Shown here: piece by piece, positions 111 through 8,753 of the stretch
Layout: every line of letters starts with the position of its first letter
Position numbering within the stretch: the first letter of the stretch is position 1
DNA from: Flammeovirgaceae bacterium UBA4659
Lineage (GTDB): Bacteria; Bacteroidota; Bacteroidia; Cytophagales; Cyclobacteriaceae
DNA: 9,247 bases
NCBI GenBank assembly: GCA_002405445.1
Contig: DHLV01000245.1
Coordinates: 1-9,247, forward strand
Direction of reading: 5' to 3'
Made by a program: the position numbers and the translations under genes
Notes under the pieces: model-generated
The model's database searches: none
The model's input: only the letters and a program-made list of their open reading frames with translations
What the model was told of the DNA's origin: nothing

Positions 111-1317
111 GATGGTCAGCGTTGAAGAAGCTACTCAAATCATTCACTCAAAGTTACTAAAGACTTCGAGAGTTGCGATTGAATTTACACAGGCCGTGGG
201 GCGCGTATTGGCAGAAGATATCGTGGCAGACCGCGACCTCCCTCCTTTCGACCGCGCTACCATGGATGGGGTGGCCGTCTCTTCTGCCAGCCTTTCACAA
301 CATTCCACTTTGCTCATACAGAGTGTCCAGGCGGCAGGCGAGCCTCAACAAACCCTTGTCTCGCATGCCCACTGCATCGAAATAATGACAGGTGCAATGC
401 TACCCAAAGGCACTGATACGATCATCCCCTACGAGCAAGTCGAAATCAAAGACGGCACGGCCACCCTTCCCGCAGGTGTAAAGATTGAAAGAGGTCAAAA
501 TATTCACCCCCAGGGGGCAGATGCCCGCAAAGGGGAAAAGGTGATGAAGGCAGGTATTCGGATTTCTCCGGCAGAAGTTGCTTTGTTTGCCTCAGTGGGC
601 AAGAATGACGTAAGCGTGATGGCTTGGCCCAAGGTCGCGATCATTTCCACAGGCAACGAACTGGTAGATGTCACTGCAACACCGCTGCCACATCAAATCA
701 GAAAATCAAACAGCTACGCGTTGCAGGCTGCTTTGAAAAGCATCGGGTGCCCATCAACAGTGATGCACCTACCTGATGATAAGCCCACGCTTGAACTCGC
801 GCTGCGCGAGCTGGTAACCCAACAGGATGTGATCATTTTGTCTGGTGGTGTTTCAAAGGGGAAATATGACTTTGTGCCGCAGGTACTGGCAACCATCGGC
901 ATCGAAAAGCATATTCACCAGGTTGCACAAAAGCCCGGTAAGCCTTTTTGGTTTGGCTCAAAGGGCAACACATTTGTGTTTGGCCTGCCGGGCAATCCGG
1001 TGTCAACATACCTGTGTTACTACCGATATATACTGCCATGGCTCTGGCATTCGCTGGGGGCTCAAACTCCGGATCAAAAAGCAATACTCGCAGAAGATTT
1101 CATGTTCAAGCCGCCACTCACCTGCTTTTTGCAGGCGGCAATCAAAAACGAGAATGGCCGTTGGATGGCTTACCCGTGCGCAGGCGGGGGATCTGGCGAT
1201 TTTGCAAACCTCGTTAAAGCGGATGGATTTTTAGAACTGCCCAATCATGGTATCCACTTCAAAAAAGGTGACGTATTTTCATGGATAAGTTTCCGGCCAA
1301 TACATCATTTGATATAG
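109..1317 (+). CDS. moeA: Molybdopterin molybdotransferase MoeA
   Basis: This 402-residue cytoplasmic enzyme inserts molybdate into adenylylated molybdopterin, the last general step of molybdenum-cofactor synthesis. Its length is normal for the family. Visible motifs, in order, are the N-terminal V-x-x-A block, DLPPFDRATMDG (residues 43-54), IMTGAMLPKGTDTIIPYE (92-109), STGNEL (180-185) followed by IRKSNSYAL (197-205), SGGVSKGKYDFVP (245-257, the GGxSxGxxD nucleotide/pterin loop of the MogA-like fold), KPGKPFWFG (275-283) and GLPGNPVST (292-300). ATG codons at 109 and 112 both fit; the second gives MVSVEEA, a common MoeA beginning. There is no Shine-Dalgarno sequence. The start abuts the divergent moaC start, and the 3' end overlaps the convergent TPR gene by 13 bases. 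No key motif is missing. Confidence 0.97.
   Translation: MMVSVEEATQIIHSKLLKTSRVAIEFTQAVGRVLAEDIVADRDLPPFDRATMDGVAVSSASLSQHSTLLIQSVQAAGEPQQTLVSHAHCIEIMTGAMLPKGTDTIIPYEQVEIKDGTATLPAGVKIERGQNIHPQGADARKGEKVMKAGIRISPAEVALFASVGKNDVSVMAWPKVAIISTGNELVDVTATPLPHQIRKSNSYALQAALKSIGCPSTVMHLPDDKPTLELALRELVTQQDVIILSGGVSKGKYDFVPQVLATIGIEKHIHQVAQKPGKPFWFGSKGNTFVFGLPGNPVSTYLCYYRYILPWLWHSLGAQTPDQKAILAEDFMFKPPLTCFLQAAIKNENGRWMAYPCAGGGSGDFANLVKADGFLELPNHGIHFKKGDVFSWISFRPIHHLI
149..178 (-). promoter_or_regulatory. Candidate moaC promoter inside moeA
   Basis: On the minus strand, TAACTTTG (156-149) matches the Bacteroidota -7 element TAnnTTTG exactly. Exactly 19 bases upstream lies TCG (178-176), one mismatch from the -33 TTG. 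The predicted start is near 140, giving a moaC leader of about 30 bases that is antisense to the first moeA codons. Prediction only. Confidence 0.35.
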
Positions 1318-1973
1318 CTTAACCCCTCCAATGCTGATACATCGTTTGGAGAATACATCAGCACCTTCGTGAAAAGCACCTTTGCCTCGCGGGTCTTACC
1401 CAATTGAAAATTGGTCCAGGCAAACATCAGCAGCCCGTCATACCCAAAAGGATACAGGTTAACCAGTTTTTCGAAATACTTGTATGCGTTGCTGTAACGC
1501 TTGTTATAGTACTCGATGTAGCCCATGCGGTAGTTGGCAGTCGAATTTTGAGGATCAATTTCCAAAACCTTCTTGTATTGTTCCACCACAGTAGTCCAAT
1601 TGCCGAGCGCAGAAGCAGGATACACATAGCCGAGCTTTGCTTCAATGGAATATGGTTTTAGCTTGATCGCCTTTTCGTAATAGGAAAGCGACTCAACATG
1701 CTGTGCTGCTTCGTAATGAAGCCAGCCAAGCCGGAGGTTCATTTCATACGACTGCTCGTCATACACTTCTTTCAAACTTGAAATCGCCTTTGTGTAATCA
1801 GCAGCGTTTTCCCATTCCATACTCTTTGCAAAAGCAGCCGTCACTTTATCTTGCGCGAGGGTGCTTGCTGCACAAAGAACCTGCCATGAAATCAACATGA
1901 ACAACATGCGCAATGAACTACTTCGTTGACAAAATGTGAAGCCAGCGCGAAAAAATAAACGAACGTTTTTCAT
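1305..1973 (-). CDS. Exported TPR-repeat protein, last gene of the operon
   Basis: A 222-residue protein made almost entirely of tetratricopeptide repeats. After a hydrophobic N-terminal segment (about residues 23-36) and a plausible signal-peptidase I site at STLA-Q (residue 40/41), roughly five TPR units run from about residue 43 to 211, with typical W/Y-x-x-L-G-x-x-x-Y and A-x-x-x-Y/F-x-K-A-L/I-x-L-x-P patterns. TPR arrays act as protein-binding scaffolds; the signal sequence places this one in the periplasm. Its ATG overlaps the preceding gene's TGA in an ATGA (1973-1970), a classic translational-coupling arrangement and the main reason for choosing this start. An internal ATG at residue 23 would give a shorter, cleaner signal peptide and cannot be excluded. 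No enzymatic domain is visible. Its 3' end overlaps convergent moeA by 13 bases. It may be a partner of the neighbouring barrel protein. Confidence 0.8.
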   Translation of the reverse strand: MKNVRLFFRAGFTFCQRSSSLRMLFMLISWQVLCAASTLAQDKVTAAFAKSMEWENAADYTKAISSLKEVYDEQSYEMNLRLGWLHYEAAQHVESLSYYEKAIKLKPYSIEAKLGYVYPASALGNWTTVVEQYKKVLEIDPQNSTANYRMGYIEYYNKRYSNAYKYFEKLVNLYPFGYDGLLMFAWTNFQLGKTREAKVLFTKVLMYSPNDVSALEGLSYIK

Positions 1974-3166
1974 AAGGGTTTGAATTTAAGTGCGAAGCTA
2001 AATATAGAATACGAATATTGGGTGGTGGTAGCTTGCTTCTCTTCGTAAGAATAGAGTGCTGTCAAATCCCACCGGGGCGAAATCGCGTAGGCGATGGTGC
2101 CCCCATACCTTGCCAGGGTTAAGTCAATAGAGTTGTTGACCAAATACCCATTCATTTCGGTGATGTTGTAATTCGAGTTTCTGAAATAATTGAGCCCAAC
2201 CAGCAACCGCGGAACGGGCGTGAAATACAGATACGGGCTCATTGCAAAAAAGGAAGGCAAGCTCCATGCGTTGACTATCGCATCTTGTGTGTTGTTTTGG
2301 TGTGTATACAGGGTAATTCCGAATGAAAAGTCCGGCTTGCCGCGAGGGTATAGAGCGACCGTGACAAACTGTAAGTATTGAGGTCGCGCCAGCACGGTAG
2401 AATAGCCTCCCCCCCCACTGAAGTCAGCATAGGGTGTTGATTTTGACACCATGCCGGAGGCTACAAGATCGCTGTATCTGAACACCCCGGCAGCGTTTGG
2501 GCTGCTGAAAGTCAAATTGACCGAGTGAAGCGAAGGGCTGAAAGTCCAGCCCTTGCCTAGCGGAACAGAAGCTTGAATAAAGTACTGCCATTGTGAAATC
2601 ACCCCTCTTGATTCGGCCTGATTGTATGCGCTTGCAGCATGCAACAAGCCGAAGTTGTTGCGCACGGTATGCGATAGGTTCACTTGAAAATACCCTGCCG
2701 GCCCGTATGCGCGGTTATTTGCAATTTTTGCACCACCTTCGGCATACACAAAGTTAACCGGAGAAATCTGTTTGACGTTTGGTATGTTGACTGCACCGTT
2801 GGGTGAATGGGCAGCGAAGGCTCGCGCCTCATCGATGCGGCCCGAAAACAATAAACTGTAATACAAATACACCTGCGTGTCGGCATCATCACTATTCAGG
2901 TAAAGTGCTTTTTTGAAGTGAGCGGCAGCTAAACGGTATCGCCCTTTGTAATAATAGGCAACCCCAAGCCGGTACCGCAAATAAAAGTAGTCGTAACCAT
3001 CTGCCAGTGCCTTATTGGAGAAAGAGATCAGTTGATCCCATTTGGATTGAGAGTAGTACTCAAAACTGCGCGCCTCCACATCAAAAGAAGTTTGCCGTTG
3101 TTGGCTATGGGCGCAAACTGCGAACCAACACAATGCAAACGTCAAAATCTTTTCGCTGTGATACAT
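1970..3166 (-). CDS. TPR plus outer-membrane beta-barrel protein, YaiO-like
   Basis: A 398-residue protein with a signal peptide (hydrophobic residues about 7-19, probable cleavage after CAHS near residue 21), an N-terminal TPR-type helical region (about 30-120, including RYRLGVAYYYKGRY and AAAHFKKALYLN), and then a long C-terminal region (about 135-398) rich in alternating polar/aromatic strands. It ends in S-Y-S-I-F-S-F-A-L-K-F, as expected for an outer-membrane barrel. This order (signal peptide, TPR, barrel) resembles the YaiO family of outer-membrane proteins; the family call is recognition by eye, not a search result. The start is ATG at 3166, 25 bases inside the upstream urea-transporter/M23 gene, and the stop overlaps the next start by ATGA. 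The coding strand has a run of eight G within a Gly-rich stretch (residues 251-254). Its exact role, pore or surface scaffold, is unknown. Confidence 0.75.
   Translation of the reverse strand: MYHSEKILTFALCWFAVCAHSQQRQTSFDVEARSFEYYSQSKWDQLISFSNKALADGYDYFYLRYRLGVAYYYKGRYRLAAAHFKKALYLNSDDADTQVYLYYSLLFSGRIDEARAFAAHSPNGAVNIPNVKQISPVNFVYAEGGAKIANNRAYGPAGYFQVNLSHTVRNNFGLLHAASAYNQAESRGVISQWQYFIQASVPLGKGWTFSPSLHSVNLTFSSPNAAGVFRYSDLVASGMVSKSTPYADFSGGGGYSTVLARPQYLQFVTVALYPRGKPDFSFGITLYTHQNNTQDAIVNAWSLPSFFAMSPYLYFTPVPRLLVGLNYFRNSNYNITEMNGYLVNNSIDLTLARYGGTIAYAISPRWDLTALYSYEEKQATTTQYSYSIFSFALKFKPL
2409..2416 (-). repeat. Eight-G homopolymer in the barrel gene
   Basis: The plus strand shows eight consecutive C, read as eight G on the coding strand, encoding part of a Gly-Gly-Gly-Gly turn in the beta-barrel domain. 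Slippage by one base would shift the frame about 250 residues into the protein. The reading frame is intact in this sequence. Confidence 0.85.
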
Positions 3167-5310
3167 GCGTTACTTTCAAAAACAGTGAATTGCAATATGC
3201 CCGTGGCATCAACGGAAATCGTAAATGCGATTCGCTGGTTGGTACGTGAGCCTCGTTTTAGTATTGCCTCAGAAGAAATCTCAAACTCAGCATCGCCTTT
3301 TTCAACTATCCGCGATTGGTAGTGCCCGCTCAAATACAAGTAGAATGGAGCCGTAAAATCGTGCAGAAACTTTGCGATGCCCTGATGGAATCCTTCAACT
3401 GATAAAACGTCTGCCACTTGTATGCCCGGATAATTCGTTAGCACCAATTTGTAAGCTGCCAAGTAGAATTTATAAAGCAATGACTGCTTGTTGCCAAAAA
3501 ACTGTGTGAAATAGAAGTTGATGCCGTTGTTGACAAAATAGGCGGCTGACTGCGTTGCGTTGCAGTAGATGTACGACTGGTTGTATGCATCCACCATCAT
3601 CTCCCACTCCTCTTGCATCGGTTTTGCACCATCGGTTACAAACTTTATTTTCTGCCCAGGAATAAATTCAAATGCATGTTGAACAGTTGGGTTTGGCTCC
3701 GGATTGAATACTATTGTGCCCTCCTCAGGGATACTAAATGACCGGAATACGTTTTGCTCGCCCTTCTCAATAAAAAATGCAATCGGATATTTCAAAGGCT
3801 TCGAACCTACATCAGGTGTTGACTGCAGTTGAAAATGAATATGTGGCTCCGGTGAGCGTCCGGAGTTTCCGCATGCTGCCAACATAGTCCCCTGCCGTAC
3901 ATAGTCGCCTGTCTTTACTTTAAAGCTGTCTTTCTTGATATGACTGAGTTTTGAATACAGACTCTCATGATGCTTGATGACAATTGTATTGCCCCAATTC
4001 TCTGCGGTGTTCACGCTGCCCACTTCGTTCTCTTCCACTTCATTGATGATATTGACAACGTAGCCGGCCGCGGGCGCCAATACGGGCAAGCCGTAGCAAT
4101 AAAAGTCAGACAACTGGTGTCCGGGAAGTTTAAAGGTTTTACCTGTTTCATCTGCAATATCGAAGTCCCAGGCGTAAGCCCAGTCTCCTTTATGTGTAAT
4201 TCCACCACCGTGCCCCTGAGAAACGCGCCACTCACCGTAAAACGGTAACTGTATATGCCAGAAGGCACTGTTTGCAAAACGAATTCCGTCCGTCCGGTAA
4301 GCATAGAGATTTTTTTCCGGATTCAGGTGTTGGTTCACCACCATGGGTAAAGCGGTGGCGTCCGCCCTATTCAACATCAGAAAGACCAATGCAATGACCA
4401 CAAGCGAAAAGGGCAATGAAAATATGGGCAACTGGTAACTTGAAATCACAACGTCCAACGCCCCCATCAGGAGGCTGACTACCGGCATCAGCAGCGCTGC
4501 CAGCAGATATGACTGAATGGACGGAATGAAATAAATCCCCACTGCCAAGCCTGTTAGCACGAAATTGAAACCTACATAGCTATTGTGAAGCTGCTCAATG
4601 TTGCCCTGTGTGGCCCAACAAAAAAAGTAGCCGGCATAAAATGCTATCAATGAGAGTGAAAATGCGATGCGCGAGTGCATCAATAAACCGATGGCAATCA
4701 GGACACCAGCGATGAGGTTATGTTGAAAAAAAATTGCAGCCAACGACCTTAAATATACGTCTATCGCCAGCGGAAGATTGATAAGCGCTGCCTGGTCGTA
4801 TGCGCTCACCAAGGTAGCGCCTCCCATCTTCCACAGCTCATTCAACTCGTAAATGCCCTGGTCAGTCAATTGCATGGAACCGATATTCCTGGAGCTCAGC
4901 AGGATCATCCACACAGCAACCAAAAAAGGCAAACTCAAAAATGGGATTCGATACGGGGCTGTCCGCACCGCCATCCACACCGTAAGCATCAATGTGATGA
5001 AACAGCCGAGCGCTAGCAACAAAAAAAACGTCACGCTCAAATTGAAATATACACCCATCGCCAAACCCAACAGCAGCACGTTGTAACCGTAGGTGCCATT
5101 GCGCATCAGCTCTTTATTCAATCCGAGCAGGTTTACCAGCAACAACGTAAAGGTTACGGCTGCCAGGCCGCTGGCACCGGCATAGGGGTTGATAAATGAT
5201 GCCACCAACAAGCATACACCCAGCCACGGCCTGCCGGAAAACAACACCTGACTATAGCTGTTGGTGATGCTATCGCGATAGAACGATATGTTCGAAAAGA
5301 CCCTCAACAC
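3142..5310 (-). CDS. Urea-transporter-like membrane domain fused to an M23 metallopeptidase domain
   Basis: A 722-residue three-part protein. Residues about 10-315 are polytopic and show the two-fold repeat of the urea-transporter (UT) family: QVLFSGRPWLGV (21-32) with NGTYGYNVLLLGLA (71-84) and IPFLSLPF (122-129) in the first half; QHNLIAGVLIAIG (196-208), YVGFNFVLTGLAVG (245-258) and LPIFSLPF (294-301) in the second. Residues about 345-515 form an M23 (LytM/NlpD-type) domain: H373 with D382/D384 in THKGDWAYAWDFD, GLPVLAPAAGYV (407-418), a GNTIVIKHH strand (440-448) and H490-x-H492 in SPEPHIHFQL. All expected zinc ligands appear present, so peptidase activity is plausible. Residues about 520-722 are of unknown type. 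The M23 part should lie in the periplasm. The start is GTG at 5310, directly after the decarboxylase TGA in the same frame; no ATG occurs before residue 69, which is already inside the membrane domain. It overlaps the next gene by 25 bases. The transported solute is unknown; urea is only a family-level guess. Confidence 0.85.
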   Translation of the reverse strand: MLRVFSNISFYRDSITNSYSQVLFSGRPWLGVCLLVASFINPYAGASGLAAVTFTLLLVNLLGLNKELMRNGTYGYNVLLLGLAMGVYFNLSVTFFLLLALGCFITLMLTVWMAVRTAPYRIPFLSLPFLVAVWMILLSSRNIGSMQLTDQGIYELNELWKMGGATLVSAYDQAALINLPLAIDVYLRSLAAIFFQHNLIAGVLIAIGLLMHSRIAFSLSLIAFYAGYFFCWATQGNIEQLHNSYVGFNFVLTGLAVGIYFIPSIQSYLLAALLMPVVSLLMGALDVVISSYQLPIFSLPFSLVVIALVFLMLNRADATALPMVVNQHLNPEKNLYAYRTDGIRFANSAFWHIQLPFYGEWRVSQGHGGGITHKGDWAYAWDFDIADETGKTFKLPGHQLSDFYCYGLPVLAPAAGYVVNIINEVEENEVGSVNTAENWGNTIVIKHHESLYSKLSHIKKDSFKVKTGDYVRQGTMLAACGNSGRSPEPHIHFQLQSTPDVGSKPLKYPIAFFIEKGEQNVFRSFSIPEEGTIVFNPEPNPTVQHAFEFIPGQKIKFVTDGAKPMQEEWEMMVDAYNQSYIYCNATQSAAYFVNNGINFYFTQFFGNKQSLLYKFYLAAYKLVLTNYPGIQVADVLSVEGFHQGIAKFLHDFTAPFYLYLSGHYQSRIVEKGDAEFEISSEAILKRGSRTNQRIAFTISVDATGILQFTVFESNACITAKRF

Positions 5311-6669
5311 TCAGATCTTAAACTCTTTGAGGTGTGCGGGCAGCACTTCTTCTGCTTCGATGGATTTGAGTGTTTCACGCTTACGGATGATGTGTGCTTT
5401 GTCATTCTTATCAATCATTACAATCGCAGGGCGAAGTGAAATAAACTGCATCCACTGTGTCATATTGTAAGCACCCACCGTGTGCACCACCACGTGGTCA
5501 TCACGCTTGAGCGGAGGCAGCGAAATGCTCTCGCGCACCACATCGATATTCATGCAAAGGGGGCCGTACAGAACCGCATCCTCACTGTACTGAGAGAATT
5601 CCTGGGCAGGGCTTATCTTGTGGTCATACCAAAACGAAGTAAAGAGCACATTCACGCCAAAATCTAAAATCGTTGCCCTCCTGCCATCGGAGAGTCGCTT
5701 GTTCGAAATCACCGATCCAAGCAAAAAGCCTGCTTCATCAATCAGCGCGCGTCCGGTTTCCAAAATCAATTGTGGCAAATCCTCTTTCGCAAAACCAGCA
5801 TTCAAAATCGCAGTTGTGATCTCCTCGGCATACGCATCAAAACTCGGTGCGAGGTCTACACCCTGTAAATACGAACCTTTTAATGTATTGCGCGATGCAA
5901 AACCGCCACCGATATCAATATATTGAATTGTTTTTTTGAATTTCTTTTTCACGTGCAACGCCAGGTCGCTCAGCTTGCTGGCAGCAATACCATACGCGCT
6001 TGGCGACAACATAAACGTGCCGATGTGGCAATGCAATCCAACCAACTCCATTGCATCGGTTAACATGATCTTATTGATGGCATCCCAAGCCTGGCCAATT
6101 TCATAATTGAAGCCAAAGCGATCCCAGATGGGGTACACTCCGGTATCCATGTTGACGCGGATTGCCACGCGCGGCTTCTTCTTGCTGTGCGATGCCAACT
6201 CCTTGATCATGTACAACTCGTCTAAATGATCAATATGGATCAACGAGTTGTTCTCAACGGCTTCTTTCAATTCAGCTCCGGATTTATCCGGACCGTTGAA
6301 GATGATTTTATTTCCCGGCACCCCGTTTTTCAAGGCCTTTTGGTACTCAAACCCTGATACCACTTCCGCCCAGGCACCTTCCTGGTGAAACACATTGCAA
6401 ACTGCATTCACGTAATTGGTTTTGTAGCTCCACGCAAACTGTACTTTTGGGTACCTTGTCTTAAATGCGCGGTTGGCGTCTTTGTACATTTGCCGGATGG
6501 TGCGTTCGGAAATCACAAACAAAGGCGATCCGAACTTTTCTATCAACGACTTCACGGGGTTGCCGTCAATGTGCGTGACGGGCGTGTATTCTGTCTTGGT
6601 TCCAAACTTATTCATGATGCCCACATTCAGCCTTTGGATGATCGGGCGTTCATAGCGAAGTTTTTTCAT
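5311..6669 (-). CDS. Fold-type III PLP-dependent decarboxylase, diaminopimelate-decarboxylase-like
   Basis: A 452-residue enzyme of the alanine-racemase-like barrel fold that includes diaminopimelate, ornithine and arginine decarboxylases. Visible motifs are SYKTN with the presumed PLP Schiff-base lysine K83, HCHIGTF (213-219), the phosphate-binding DIGGGF (252-257), ETGRALID (304-311), GPLCMNID (369-376, with the usual active-site Cys372) and GAYN (399-402). These support a catalytically competent decarboxylase acting on an amino acid or a derivative; the substrate cannot be told from sequence, and the operon context argues against routine lysine synthesis. The normal family start would be near Met19 (MNKFG). 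The ATG at 6669 adds 18 residues with a leader-like motif, and A-rich DNA precedes it, so I keep the longer form. It sits 51 bases after the ATP-grasp stop and directly abuts the next gene. Confidence 0.88.
   Translation of the reverse strand: MKKLRYERPIIQRLNVGIMNKFGTKTEYTPVTHIDGNPVKSLIEKFGSPLFVISERTIRQMYKDANRAFKTRYPKVQFAWSYKTNYVNAVCNVFHQEGAWAEVVSGFEYQKALKNGVPGNKIIFNGPDKSGAELKEAVENNSLIHIDHLDELYMIKELASHSKKKPRVAIRVNMDTGVYPIWDRFGFNYEIGQAWDAINKIMLTDAMELVGLHCHIGTFMLSPSAYGIAASKLSDLALHVKKKFKKTIQYIDIGGGFASRNTLKGSYLQGVDLAPSFDAYAEEITTAILNAGFAKEDLPQLILETGRALIDEAGFLLGSVISNKRLSDGRRATILDFGVNVLFTSFWYDHKISPAQEFSQYSEDAVLYGPLCMNIDVVRESISLPPLKRDDHVVVHTVGAYNMTQWMQFISLRPAIVMIDKNDKAHIIRKRETLKSIEAEEVLPAHLKEFKI
6616..6669 (-). 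other. RiPP-leader-like N-terminal extension of the decarboxylase
   Basis: Codons 1-18 encode a basic segment containing YERPIIQRLNVG (residues 6-17), placed before the normal decarboxylase N-terminus at Met19. The pattern YxxPxIxxL resembles the YxxP...L leader motif recognised by PqqD-fold RiPP recognition elements in lasso-peptide pathways (established family knowledge). A PqqD-like protein is encoded two genes upstream. That the two interact is inference. Confidence 0.45.
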
Positions 6670-6720
6670 CTTTTTACTGTTTTTGGTTTTTCTGATATCG
6701 GTTTACATTACATCATGTTC

Positions 6721-7767
6721 CTATAATTCCCCCGTTGTACTGATTTTCTCGAACTCCTTCAGATCCACAATCATGTCGTAAGAGTAGCGGATAAACATCT
6801 TACCCACTTCGTAGTCAACAGAGGGCTTTACTTTGCGGCCCATGGCAACTTTAATTAATGCTTCCGGGTGATTTTGCCCACATCCCACCGCTAAATATAC
6901 CCACGCGGGAAAGCGGGGGTTTATTTCCAGCAGGTAATACTCATCGTAGGTGGTTTTGATAATCTCCAACTCCAGCCCGCCCTTCCACTTGGTGGACTTG
7001 ATGAGTTTGCGTGTCATGTTCAGCAACTTTTTATCATCGATGGAAATGCCTGCCCATGCCTTGCCTTTGTCGGTGATGTATTGTTTACGCATGGGCACGG
7101 CACCCAGCGTCACCCCGGTTCCATCGCCAATGGCTGTCACGTTCACCTCCGAGCCGAAAATATACTGTTGGATGATGATGGGCAACCCCCACTTCGCGCT
7201 GATCCGGTTGAAGTAATTGTACACCTGATCGGGCGAATAGGCAATAGACGCATCATAAAACTTTCCTTTCACCACCAGTGGATAGGTGAACTCATCGCGC
7301 AGGTTTTGAATTTCGTTCACACTGAAAATGGTCTTGCTGTAAGGTACTTTGATATTGTGTTTCTTCCCGAACTCAGTGAGGTTTACCTTGTGGCGCGCAT
7401 CAAATTGCTCTTGTGTGGGGAAACACGTCTTGATGTTGCGCTTATCCAGATCTTTCTTCAATTTGATGAAACTTGGCAACTCGGCATCAAAGTTAGGGAT
7501 TATGACGTCCAGGTTCTCTTTGCCATGAATGTAATCGAGCCGCTCGAGCAAAATGTTTGCACCTGCACTGGGCAGCGGAATTTGGTAGGTCTTGTTGACT
7601 AAATCATGCATGTAAATGCCGGGCTCCAGCGTTTCGTACGATAAGCCGATGATGCGGACATCGAAATCACGGCTTTCGCGCAAAGCACGGATCACCGGTA
7701 TGCCGGGGCCCGGACTGTCGATCGCGTTGAGCCCGGTAATCGCTACATTAATCGTTTTCCTTTTCAT
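6721..7767 (-). CDS. ATP-grasp ligase, carbamoyl-phosphate-synthetase-like subgroup
   Basis: A 348-residue cytoplasmic protein with the three-part ATP-grasp fold. A Rossmann-like pre-ATP-grasp domain opens with INVAITGLNAIDSPG (6-20). The ATP-binding part has PLVVKGKF (163-170, nucleotide-contacting K167) and QQYIFGSEVNV (200-210). The metal-binding strands are GGLELEII (263-270) and EINPRFPAW (281-289), with the usual Glu281 and Asn283 magnesium ligands. Such enzymes activate a carboxylate as an acyl phosphate and join it to an amine or similar nucleophile. The nearest style is CarB/PylC-type rather than D-Ala-D-Ala ligase or RimK, judged by eye. The start ATG at 7767 overlaps the PqqD-like gene by 20 bases, so the two are probably translationally coupled. 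In context it probably forms an amide or peptide bond on a substrate shared with the decarboxylase; the substrate is unknown. Confidence 0.88.
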   Translation of the reverse strand: MKRKTINVAITGLNAIDSPGPGIPVIRALRESRDFDVRIIGLSYETLEPGIYMHDLVNKTYQIPLPSAGANILLERLDYIHGKENLDVIIPNFDAELPSFIKLKKDLDKRNIKTCFPTQEQFDARHKVNLTEFGKKHNIKVPYSKTIFSVNEIQNLRDEFTYPLVVKGKFYDASIAYSPDQVYNYFNRISAKWGLPIIIQQYIFGSEVNVTAIGDGTGVTLGAVPMRKQYITDKGKAWAGISIDDKKLLNMTRKLIKSTKWKGGLELEIIKTTYDEYYLLEINPRFPAWVYLAVGCGQNHPEALIKVAMGRKVKPSVDYEVGKMFIRYSYDMIVDLKEFEKISTTGEL

Positions 7768-8008
7768 TCGCTTCTGTCAGTTTGAATTTCGAAAGGGTGC
7801 CCAAAAAATCCTGAATGTCTCGCTCCATGGTGGCTTCATCAATGTCGTACTGCTTGAGCAGGATTGCCTTGATGTCTTCAACCGCTTTTCCCTCCTTCAT
7901 CTGCCTCACGATTTCCATGCCGATGGGGTTGGTGGAAAACGAATCGCCATTGGAGGGGTTAAACACAAAACCCGAGTCGCTTAGTGCCAAGTTTTTTCCA
8001 AGTTTCAT
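7748..8008 (-). CDS. PqqD-like small protein (RiPP recognition element fold), first gene of the operon
   Basis: An 86-residue protein matching the PqqD family throughout: SDSGFVFNPSNGDSFSTN (residues 10-27) is the beta-hairpin with the conserved N-P-x-G step after it (NPIG, 27-30), then a helical half with EGKAVEDIKAILLKQYD and a final DIQDFLGTL helix. Stand-alone PqqD proteins bind the leader region of a peptide substrate and present it to a modifying enzyme (established for PqqD in PQQ synthesis and for lasso-peptide B1 proteins). No radical-SAM partner is nearby; the partner here would be the ATP-grasp ligase, whose start codon lies inside this gene. I chose ATG at 8008; a longer GTG start at 8059 adds 17 residues unlike the family. 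No classical precursor peptide gene was found beside it. Confidence 0.82.
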   Translation of the reverse strand: MKLGKNLALSDSGFVFNPSNGDSFSTNPIGMEIVRQMKEGKAVEDIKAILLKQYDIDEATMERDIQDFLGTLSKFKLTEANEKEND

Positions 8009-8098: not shown

Positions 8099-8698
8099 TC
8101 AGTCTAACAACGCAGAAAGGGGTTTTCTGCCGCCTCTTTGGGCTTTGTACTCAGACAAAGTGAGCCCTGTTACCTGTTTAAACTGGTTGGAAAGATACTG
8201 GACACTACTGTATCCCATTTGAAAGGCAATTTCGCTGACGGTCATCTGATCATAGCTCACCAACTCCTTCACCTTCTCCATTTTTATCAGGATGATGTAC
8301 TTCTCTAACGTGGTGCCGGTCTTTTCTGAAAACATCTTGCTCAATTGCTGGTAGGGATAGCCGAGCTTTTCGCTGAGGTAGTCTGAATTGCGGACAAGTG
8401 AGTTGGTGTTGCCGCCATAAAAAACCAACTGGATCACCGCTGTTTTTATATGCTCCACCAATTTGGTTGTGTTTTCAAAAATCAATTCGAAACCCTGAGA
8501 CTTTAACAAGTCGTTGATAAAATTCAAAGTGATGATTTGCGGATCAAAATACACCTCGGCTTCGCCCAGTTCAATGCGCTTCACTTCGATGAAACCCGTG
8601 CGGTAAAGGGCGTCTTTGACGAACCGGATACAACTGTTGCCCACCATATCTTTTATATGCAAAGTGGTAAGCTGTGTGTTAAAGTTATGTTTTTCCAT
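8099..8698 (-). CDS. AraC-family regulator with a degenerate heavy-metal-associated-like N-terminal domain
   Basis: A 199-residue protein from ATG at 8698. The C-terminal half carries the AraC two-helix-turn-helix DNA-binding domain: SYDQMTVSEIAFQMGYSS (about residues 147-164), then SNQFKQVTGLTLSEYK (about 168-183). The N-terminal about 70 residues (TLHIKDMVGNSCIRFVKDAL, then VKRIELGEAEVYFD) look like a ferredoxin-like heavy-metal-associated fold, an arrangement I know from many Bacteroidota AraC proteins. The usual first Cys of MxCxxC is Gly here (MVGNSC), so a two-Cys metal site is absent. An upstream TTG start at 8731 would add 11 residues and is less likely. It lies 90 bases before the pqqD-like gene on the same strand, so it could be the operon's regulator or its first gene; the sequence does not decide. 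Confidence 0.87.
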   Translation of the reverse strand: MEKHNFNTQLTTLHIKDMVGNSCIRFVKDALYRTGFIEVKRIELGEAEVYFDPQIITLNFINDLLKSQGFELIFENTTKLVEHIKTAVIQLVFYGGNTNSLVRNSDYLSEKLGYPYQQLSKMFSEKTGTTLEKYIILIKMEKVKELVSYDQMTVSEIAFQMGYSSVQYLSNQFKQVTGLTLSEYKAQRGGRKPLSALLD

Positions 8699-8753
8699 CA
8701 AAACTGCCCACAATTTATTGCATTGTTGCAAAAGACAAAAGCCTAACGGTCAA

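Follow-up and report, generated by a model that had tools for sequence, protein, structure and literature searches.

What does a PqqD-family protein bind when it is encoded beside an ATP-grasp ligase, a pyridoxal phosphate (PLP) decarboxylase and a fusion of a urea transporter with an M23 peptidase (UT-M23)? The question is raised by the window analysed here, the whole 9,247-nucleotide stretch of contig DHLV01000245.1 from Flammeovirgaceae bacterium UBA4659 (GCA_002405445.1). An earlier note, made from its sequence alone, had proposed a six-gene operon joining a peptide-modification-like module to an envelope-spanning module. We find that this gene cluster is tightly kept in scattered Bacteroidota and Cloacimonadota genomes, and it is about certain that the operon is real and acts as one functional unit. 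The reading we prefer as a whole, with slightly better than even confidence, is a conserved pathway in which the PqqD protein would act as a recognition element (RRE) of the kind found with ribosomally synthesised and post-translationally modified peptides (RiPPs), docked on a tail of the decarboxylase beside the ATP-grasp ligase, and which would yield a small decarboxylated amino-acid conjugate.

All six open reading frames (ORFs) of the earlier note were recovered on the minus strand, with the same overlaps and gaps, and Pfam supports the gene types that it named (PqqD, ATP-grasp, Orn_Arg_deC_N, UT plus M23, and TPR). The features are as follows.

7748..8008, minus strand: PqqD-family protein, predicted lasso-type RRE, 86 amino acids (Pfam PqqD, 6.5e-12)
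6721..7767, minus strand: ATP-grasp ligase of the carbamoyl-phosphate-synthase-like group, 348 amino acids (Pfam ATPgrasp_Ter and ATP-grasp_3; ATP-grasp, 4.4e-8)
5311..6669, minus strand: fold-III (alanine-racemase-fold) PLP decarboxylase, 452 amino acids (Pfam Orn_Arg_deC_N, 1.3e-30)
6580..6669, minus strand: leader-like N-terminal tail of the decarboxylase, residues 1-30, KKLRYERPIIQRLNVGIMNKFG... (from alignments)
6637..6654, minus strand: YxxPxI motif (Tyr6-Ile11), predicted RRE ligand (motif as defined in PMC13381572 and PMC10368454)
3142..5310, minus strand: UT-M23 fusion, 722 amino acids (Pfam UT, 2.8e-52; M23, 9.8e-15)
1970..3166, minus strand: TPR and beta-barrel-like protein, 398 amino acids, predicted exported (export and barrel judged from sequence)
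1305..1973, minus strand: TPR protein, 222 amino acids, predicted exported (Pfam TPR)

The PqqD and ATP-grasp genes overlap by 20 bases, a 51-base gap separates the ATP-grasp and decarboxylase genes, and the decarboxylase gene abuts that of UT-M23. The UT-M23 and TPR-barrel genes overlap by 25 bases, and the TPR-barrel and exported TPR genes share an ATGA overlap.

Conservation of the gene cluster

Two samples were searched, one of 395 genomes from the phylum and one of 395 genomes from the window's class; genomes and loci carry our G and L numbers. The phylum search for UT-M23 used a protein query, scored two candidates per genome and kept matches with an E-value of 5.3e-79 or better. Among the matches listed, UT-M23 with both domains covered was present in 34/395 genomes, two of them without one full ORF (it is split in G005, and in G255 the ORF covers residues 8-537). 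The weaker rows that were dropped were M23-only, except for one weak UT-only match and second pieces in G124 and G005. The ATP-grasp profile likewise identified 34/395 genomes, and a comparison of the lists by eye found them identical to the UT-M23 set, as would be expected of the single functional unit that had been proposed.

Gene order was compared across 44 loci, comprising 34 from the phylum sample (L043-L076, with L043 representing the window's own genome) and ten from Cloacimonadota. The order and orientation PqqD, ATP-grasp, PLP decarboxylase, UT-M23 were kept in all 34 phylum-sample loci, with exceptions of detail: L076 has an extra gene between PqqD and ATP-grasp, L072 has extra sequence before UT-M23, and UT-M23 consists of two ORFs in L074. 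The same order was observed in 9/10 Cloacimonadota loci, the tenth being a 3.9-kb contig that begins inside the decarboxylase. Given this retention of order and orientation, the packing is not a matter of chance. An order seen only here would have counted against the idea of one system; it is instead common to two phyla. Neighbours lay within 50 bases of one another at the three core junctions in 41/43, 36/43 and 35/44 loci, although these counts used the longest ORFs, which possibly overstates the overlaps.

In the class sample, ATP-grasp was found in 76/395 genomes and UT-M23 in 83, with 73 genomes holding both. PqqD and the decarboxylase lay beside ATP-grasp in 71/71 further loci (including L083, which came from a family search). 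Contiguity of the operon held in most but not all cases: ATP-grasp and UT-M23 are on one contig within 3 kb in 67/73 genomes, they are on different contigs in G477, G604, G610 and G658, where ATP-grasp is near a contig end, and in G464 and G570 the PqqD/ATP-grasp/decarboxylase triad and UT-M23 occupy separate places, each with its own neighbours. The unit is therefore made of two modules that can lie apart and are retained together even when unlinked. The three class genomes with ATP-grasp only (G526, G664 and G670) have the gene on contigs of 3.4-7.0 kb. Around the separated places in G570 and G464 (L177-L180), an amidohydrolase-like gene was observed by eye near the triad in L177 and L179.

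As for the six-gene set, PqqD, ATP-grasp, the decarboxylase and UT-M23 are its constant part, while the outer-membrane-like gene varies; the TPR/barrel gene of the window's type clustered in 13/44 loci, and another barrel-like gene of ~275 amino acids in 17/44. A TPR cluster was found in 41/44 loci, and seven printed relatives start with signal-like segments (by eye). No pathway with a matching gene set was found in the open-licence literature searched, in agreement with the earlier note.

The PqqD protein and the decarboxylase tail

When the PqqD profile was compared with the PDB, the best solved relatives were lasso RREs (TbiB1, 1.8e-12; TfuB1, 1.9e-9), with further matches to PbaB1 (9x90, 1.2e-5) and LppB (9x8z, 7e-4). 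PMC13381572 describes how Asn33 of LppB fixes a kink at the leader Pro and Asp70 bonds the leader Tyr; exchange of Asn33 nearly abolishes binding and exchange of Asp70 weakens it. Asn27 of the window protein aligns to Asn33, and Asp64 to Asp70 (26 and 63 in the analysed fragment, which began after the first Met). The Asn27 equivalent is invariant in 35/35 sequences and in 71/71 further loci; the other invariant residues of the 35 are two Gly and two Phe only. On these alignments, the PqqD protein carries the predicted leader-binding cleft of an RRE. It resembles the lasso and LPP RREs (TbiB1, TfuB1, PbaB1 and LppB; PMC13381572) in its PqqD fold, in the Asn33 and Asp70 equivalents and in the ligand motif [Y/W]xxPx[L/V/I/F/A]. 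It differs from them in that their motif is on a free precursor, whereas here it is on a biosynthetic enzyme. No Pfam family for a lasso cyclase or a B2 leader peptidase was found among the window's operon proteins. A LysW-like carrier role for the PqqD protein was also considered, and dropped because its C-terminus, where the carrier tail would be, is not conserved.

About 30 residues of the decarboxylase precede the part that is common to diaminopimelate decarboxylase and FigC. The consensus of this tail in alignments is K-x-x-[Y/F]-x-x-P-x-[I/L/V]-x5-G-x-x-x-K-[F/Y]-[G/A], and its [Y/F]xxPx[I/L/V] segment is the motif of lasso-type leaders. Pro9 and Lys21 are the same in all 35 sequences, whereas positions 17, 22 and 23 vary to some extent. 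The structure model predicts disorder in the tail (predicted local distance difference test, pLDDT, below 50 at residues 7-20 and 22-25), and after residue 30, 27/43 ten-residue blocks have a pLDDT of 90 or more. The genome's other LysA-like homologue aligns from residue 34 only, a match without the tail. Two copies of the operon in the assembly (see below) differ in their first 31 codons by ten synonymous and one non-synonymous codon changes, so the tail is both translated and under constraint.

The residues predicted to meet in the cleft vary together. For the first 44 rows, the tail Tyr is paired with the RRE Asp in 38, and a tail Phe is found in five, where the RRE position is Tyr (four) or His (one); PqqD is unreadable in the remaining row (L043). 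The 71 further loci gave 69 Tyr/Asp pairs, one Phe/Tyr pair (L083) and one locus without a readable tail (L092). Of these 69 rows, 66 were parsed by script, and L121, L146 and L152 were read by eye as the expression had anchored wrongly. Overall, tail Tyr goes with RRE Asp in 107/107 readable pairs, which is consistent with a contact. A tree of the first 44 rows requires one event each for the Tyr-to-Phe change and the Asp loss, in a single clade, and a search of the extra loci for a second Tyr-to-Phe event yielded one more Phe row (L083), of the same family as three known ones.

Search for a free ligand

No separate precursor peptide gene was found in the 44 loci or by a tail profile in 11 whole genomes. 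The strict tail motif occurs once in 40/44 loci, always at the start of the decarboxylase and nowhere else in the 44; in the other four, the locus is cut short (L007) or the tail departs from the motif (L047, L049 and L050). A loose version of the motif was present in 66/9327 small ORFs of these loci, and the recurring ones (L005/L007, L044/L050 and L057/L059) fall inside conserved genes, or on the strand opposite them, in related genomes. In the 11 genomes, the tail profile located 13 places, all decarboxylase starts, and no free copy; the three remaining matches had E-values of only 0.29-0.80. With no free copy of the tail in these genomes, the ligand of the RRE is most likely the decarboxylase itself and not a free precursor. 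We regard it as likely that the RRE docks on this tail. The claim of peptide tailoring is not supported in its original wording: the enzymes of peptide-modification type are indeed present (PqqD/RRE, ATP-grasp and PLP decarboxylase), but no free peptide substrate was found in these searches, and the leader-like peptide forms the start of the decarboxylase chain.

The decarboxylase and the ATP-grasp ligase

The nearest solved relative of the decarboxylase is the N-citrylornithine decarboxylase 7kh2 (3.1e-60 by sequence, and also first by fold). We take its PLP-binding residue to be Lys83, and Cys372-Met373 is present. It falls short of the curated LysA score, reaching 227.1 bits with TIGR01048, whose cut-off is 297.9. 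The docked model of FigC in PMC7857480 has Met355 and Tyr383 packing against the substrate chain, with His357 and Arg387 as the citrate contacts. Alignment places Met373 and Tyr401 at the first pair in 35/35 sequences, and Ile375 and Gln405 at the citrate ligands, also in 35/35, so the citrate-binding residues of an N-citrylornithine decarboxylase proper are missing. That paper places FigC in one group with SbnH, AcsE, MccE and BtrK, whose amino-acid substrates are already joined to something. With the citrate ligands replaced in such a subfamily, the ligase would act first and the decarboxylase second, on a conjugate other than citrate, an order that we consider plausible, at slightly above an even chance. 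The enzyme is thus like the FigC/FslC subfamily (PMC7857480) in being an alanine-racemase-fold PLP decarboxylase with invariant Met355 and Tyr383 equivalents. It is unlike it in being accompanied by an ATP-grasp ligase and not by an NRPS-independent siderophore (NIS) synthetase, and in having the leader-like tail and Ile and Gln in place of the citrate ligands.

For the ATP-grasp protein, the NCBIfam PRK12767 models scored below cut-off and the PDB matches were 2pn1 and 1a9x; judging by these matches, it is related to carbamoyl-phosphate-synthase-like ligases.

The UT-M23 fusion and the exported proteins

UT-M23 comprises a UT fold (residues 3-343), an M23/LytM fold (~350-526) and a beta-rich C-terminal domain (~540-722); the rows of the fold alignment reach about residue 540. 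Pfam, topology and fold comparison support the UT fold, to which the fusion adds the M23 and beta-rich domains that the SLC14/dvUT urea transporters do not have. Position 126, which we assume to be Thr in the urea transporter signature, is Ser in 34/36 sequences. The zinc ligands and catalytic His of M23 (H373, D382, H457, H490 and H492) are present in 36/36. The domain has the fold and the His/Asp/His/His/His set of M23/LytM endopeptidases (ShyA, the DipM LytM domain, Csd and LytM), and differs in being fused to a channel, in its predicted cytoplasmic side and in an H to D spacing of 9.

The UT part has two times five membrane helices, and with this even number the N-terminus and M23 are placed on one side of the membrane. 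By the positive-inside rule this is the cytoplasmic side in 36/36 sequences, and M23 is accordingly predicted to be cytoplasmic. A disulfide was considered as a sign of a periplasmic M23; Cys405 is present even where position 480 is Val (L003, L004 and L047, by eye), and position 404 is Tyr.

Several further surface or exported proteins were observed near the operon. In ten loci (L057-L060, L062-L064 and L066-L068), a co-oriented, exported-looking protein of ~280 amino acids (358 in L058) directly precedes PqqD. Its NYPNPFNP-type sorting tail is presumably a type IX secretion signal, and its cluster (c5) also pools other proteins with such a tail. A lipoprotein-like gene of ~900-970 amino acids follows the TPR genes in seven Cloacimonadota loci (L003-L006, L008, L010 and L011), and genes for FG-GAP-like or vault/inter-alpha-trypsin-type surface proteins were noted by eye in L055, L056 and L072.

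UT-M23 with a second synthesis module

Ten class genomes carry UT-M23 without this ATP-grasp (L163-L172). In L163, L164, L165, L168, L169 and, partly, L167, which represent two families, the UT-M23-TPR-barrel genes adjoin a divergent alternative module. It encodes a 913-amino-acid fold-I amino-acid decarboxylase (1.1e-234 to 9n0o), another ATP-grasp protein (PRK06524, above cut-off) and a small protein without a Pfam match that we take to be VOC-like. The module adjoins UT-M23 in 6/6 loci with enough contig, one of them partly covered; the contig ends before this region in L166 and L170, and L172 has a fragment of the usual decarboxylase at its contig end. The UT-M23 module thus occurs with two unrelated ligase-plus-decarboxylase pairs, the second in two families only, and this speaks for a connection between the fusion and chemistry of that type. 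The 9n0o chain is M. tuberculosis Rv2531c, whose activity is described as unclarified in PMC12910592. L163-L165 and L167-L169 offer a possible genomic context for Rv2531c-like enzymes.

Proposed mechanism and rival explanations

In the mechanism that we prefer, the RRE would serve as a scaffold and not as a precursor-peptide chaperone: docked on the built-in leader-like tail, it would hold the decarboxylase beside the ATP-grasp ligase. The ligase would first form an amide between an amino acid and a partner. The decarboxylase would then take off the alpha-carboxylate, in the way that FigC, BtrK and MccE treat amino acids that are already conjugated. Of all the steps, the part played by UT-M23 is the weakest and is put forward tentatively, at somewhat less than an even chance. 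The channel-tethered M23, on its predicted cytoplasmic side, might cut the product or recognise it, a small neutral portion might leave through the UT pore, and the exported TPR and barrel proteins might take it further.

Several observations weigh against this picture. No NCBIfam PqqD model reached its cut-off with the window's PqqD protein. The Tyr/Asp covariation amounts to one event and therefore has no statistical weight as independent pairs, and YxxP is short, so that a free precursor of other sequence could exist. The FigC residue roles rest on the docked model of PMC7857480. L171, from a genome that is 68% complete, has neither module beside UT-M23. The Rv2531c-like decarboxylase was found in 25/315 genomes, 17 of the 25 outside the UT-M23 genomes, so its adjacency to UT-M23 may be shared synteny of two families. 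Finally, 7/8 standalone M23 relatives look exported (by eye), which does not favour a cytoplasmic M23.

This last point bears on a cell-wall system, in which a periplasmic M23 would cut peptidoglycan with UT as a mere anchor and the enzymes would make a wall-attached diamine or amino-acid derivative. The match of the M23 fold to LytM, ShyA and Csd enzymes and the TPR and barrel genes downstream also speak for it, but the even helix number and the positive charge on the M23 side in every sequence oppose it, and we regard it as unlikely. The envelope-spanning role first suggested for UT-M23 is left unclear by the same conflict. Slightly less unlikely is a built-in carrier, with the decarboxylase as its own precursor: the RRE would present the tail to the ligase, ATP-grasp would charge Lys21, the tethered decarboxylase would act, and M23 would cut inside the cell to free the product, which would exit through the urea-type pore. 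Lys21 follows the motif by ten residues, is the fixed point of a disordered and otherwise variable stretch, and is kept where its neighbours change (L136 and L149, for example); it may, however, simply contact the RRE or the ligase, and no precedent was found.

A conventional RiPP system, in which the RRE's partner would be a precursor that is unlinked or was not recognised and the decarboxylase tail would only compete with or mimic its leader, would account for the use of a generic leader motif, and RiPP pathways commonly include an RRE, an ATP-grasp enzyme and a peptidase. The confinement of the strict motif to the decarboxylase, the origin of the recurring loose-motif ORFs and the lack of any other tail-profile match at E below 0.29 in 11 genomes make it improbable. 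Still less credible, and in our view very improbable, is a butirosin-like logic with PqqD as amino-acid carrier, ATP-grasp as loading enzyme and a decarboxylase that acts on the loaded form. The butirosin proteins BtrI, BtrJ and BtrK cover the same three roles (BtrI and BtrK according to PMC7857480) and likewise combine a ligase and a decarboxylase on a bound amino acid; BtrK and the decarboxylase are related in sequence (2.7e-25). The PqqD protein here is nevertheless without carrier features: its C-terminus is unconserved, and none of its few invariant residues (the cleft Asn and a pair each of Gly and Phe) suggests itself as an attachment site.

RREs are known for guiding enzymes to free precursors, and in this cluster, kept across two phyla and with its ATP-grasp gene in 76/395 class genomes, the recognition motif seems to have been transferred to a biosynthetic enzyme. 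If docking on the tail is correct, this would be a different use of an RRE and a class of RRE clusters in which RiPP mining should expect no precursor. It would also suggest that the urea-channel/peptidase fusion handles a small molecule that has yet to be described.

Genomic setting of the window

The window's assembly has 301 contigs and is 89.7% complete and 5.2% contaminated. Its ATP-grasp protein is 71-75% identical to named Bacteroidota relatives. A diverged second copy of the operon is present in the same assembly (L043, G000 contig C35), with an ATP-grasp protein 91% identical, an in-frame stop in UT-M23 and a PqqD gene broken by a run of N; this copy may come from contamination or from a second strain.

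Downstream of the operon is a gene that we take to be moeA-like. Upstream, on the same minus strand, is what we assume to be an AraC-type gene (8099-8731), followed by a plus-strand, presumably ffh-like gene. The AraC-type gene was left out of the operon's parts list because the 44 loci yielded just one further homologue (L074, 4207-4797). In both the window and L074 it is immediately upstream of PqqD, where it is a possible regulator of the operon.

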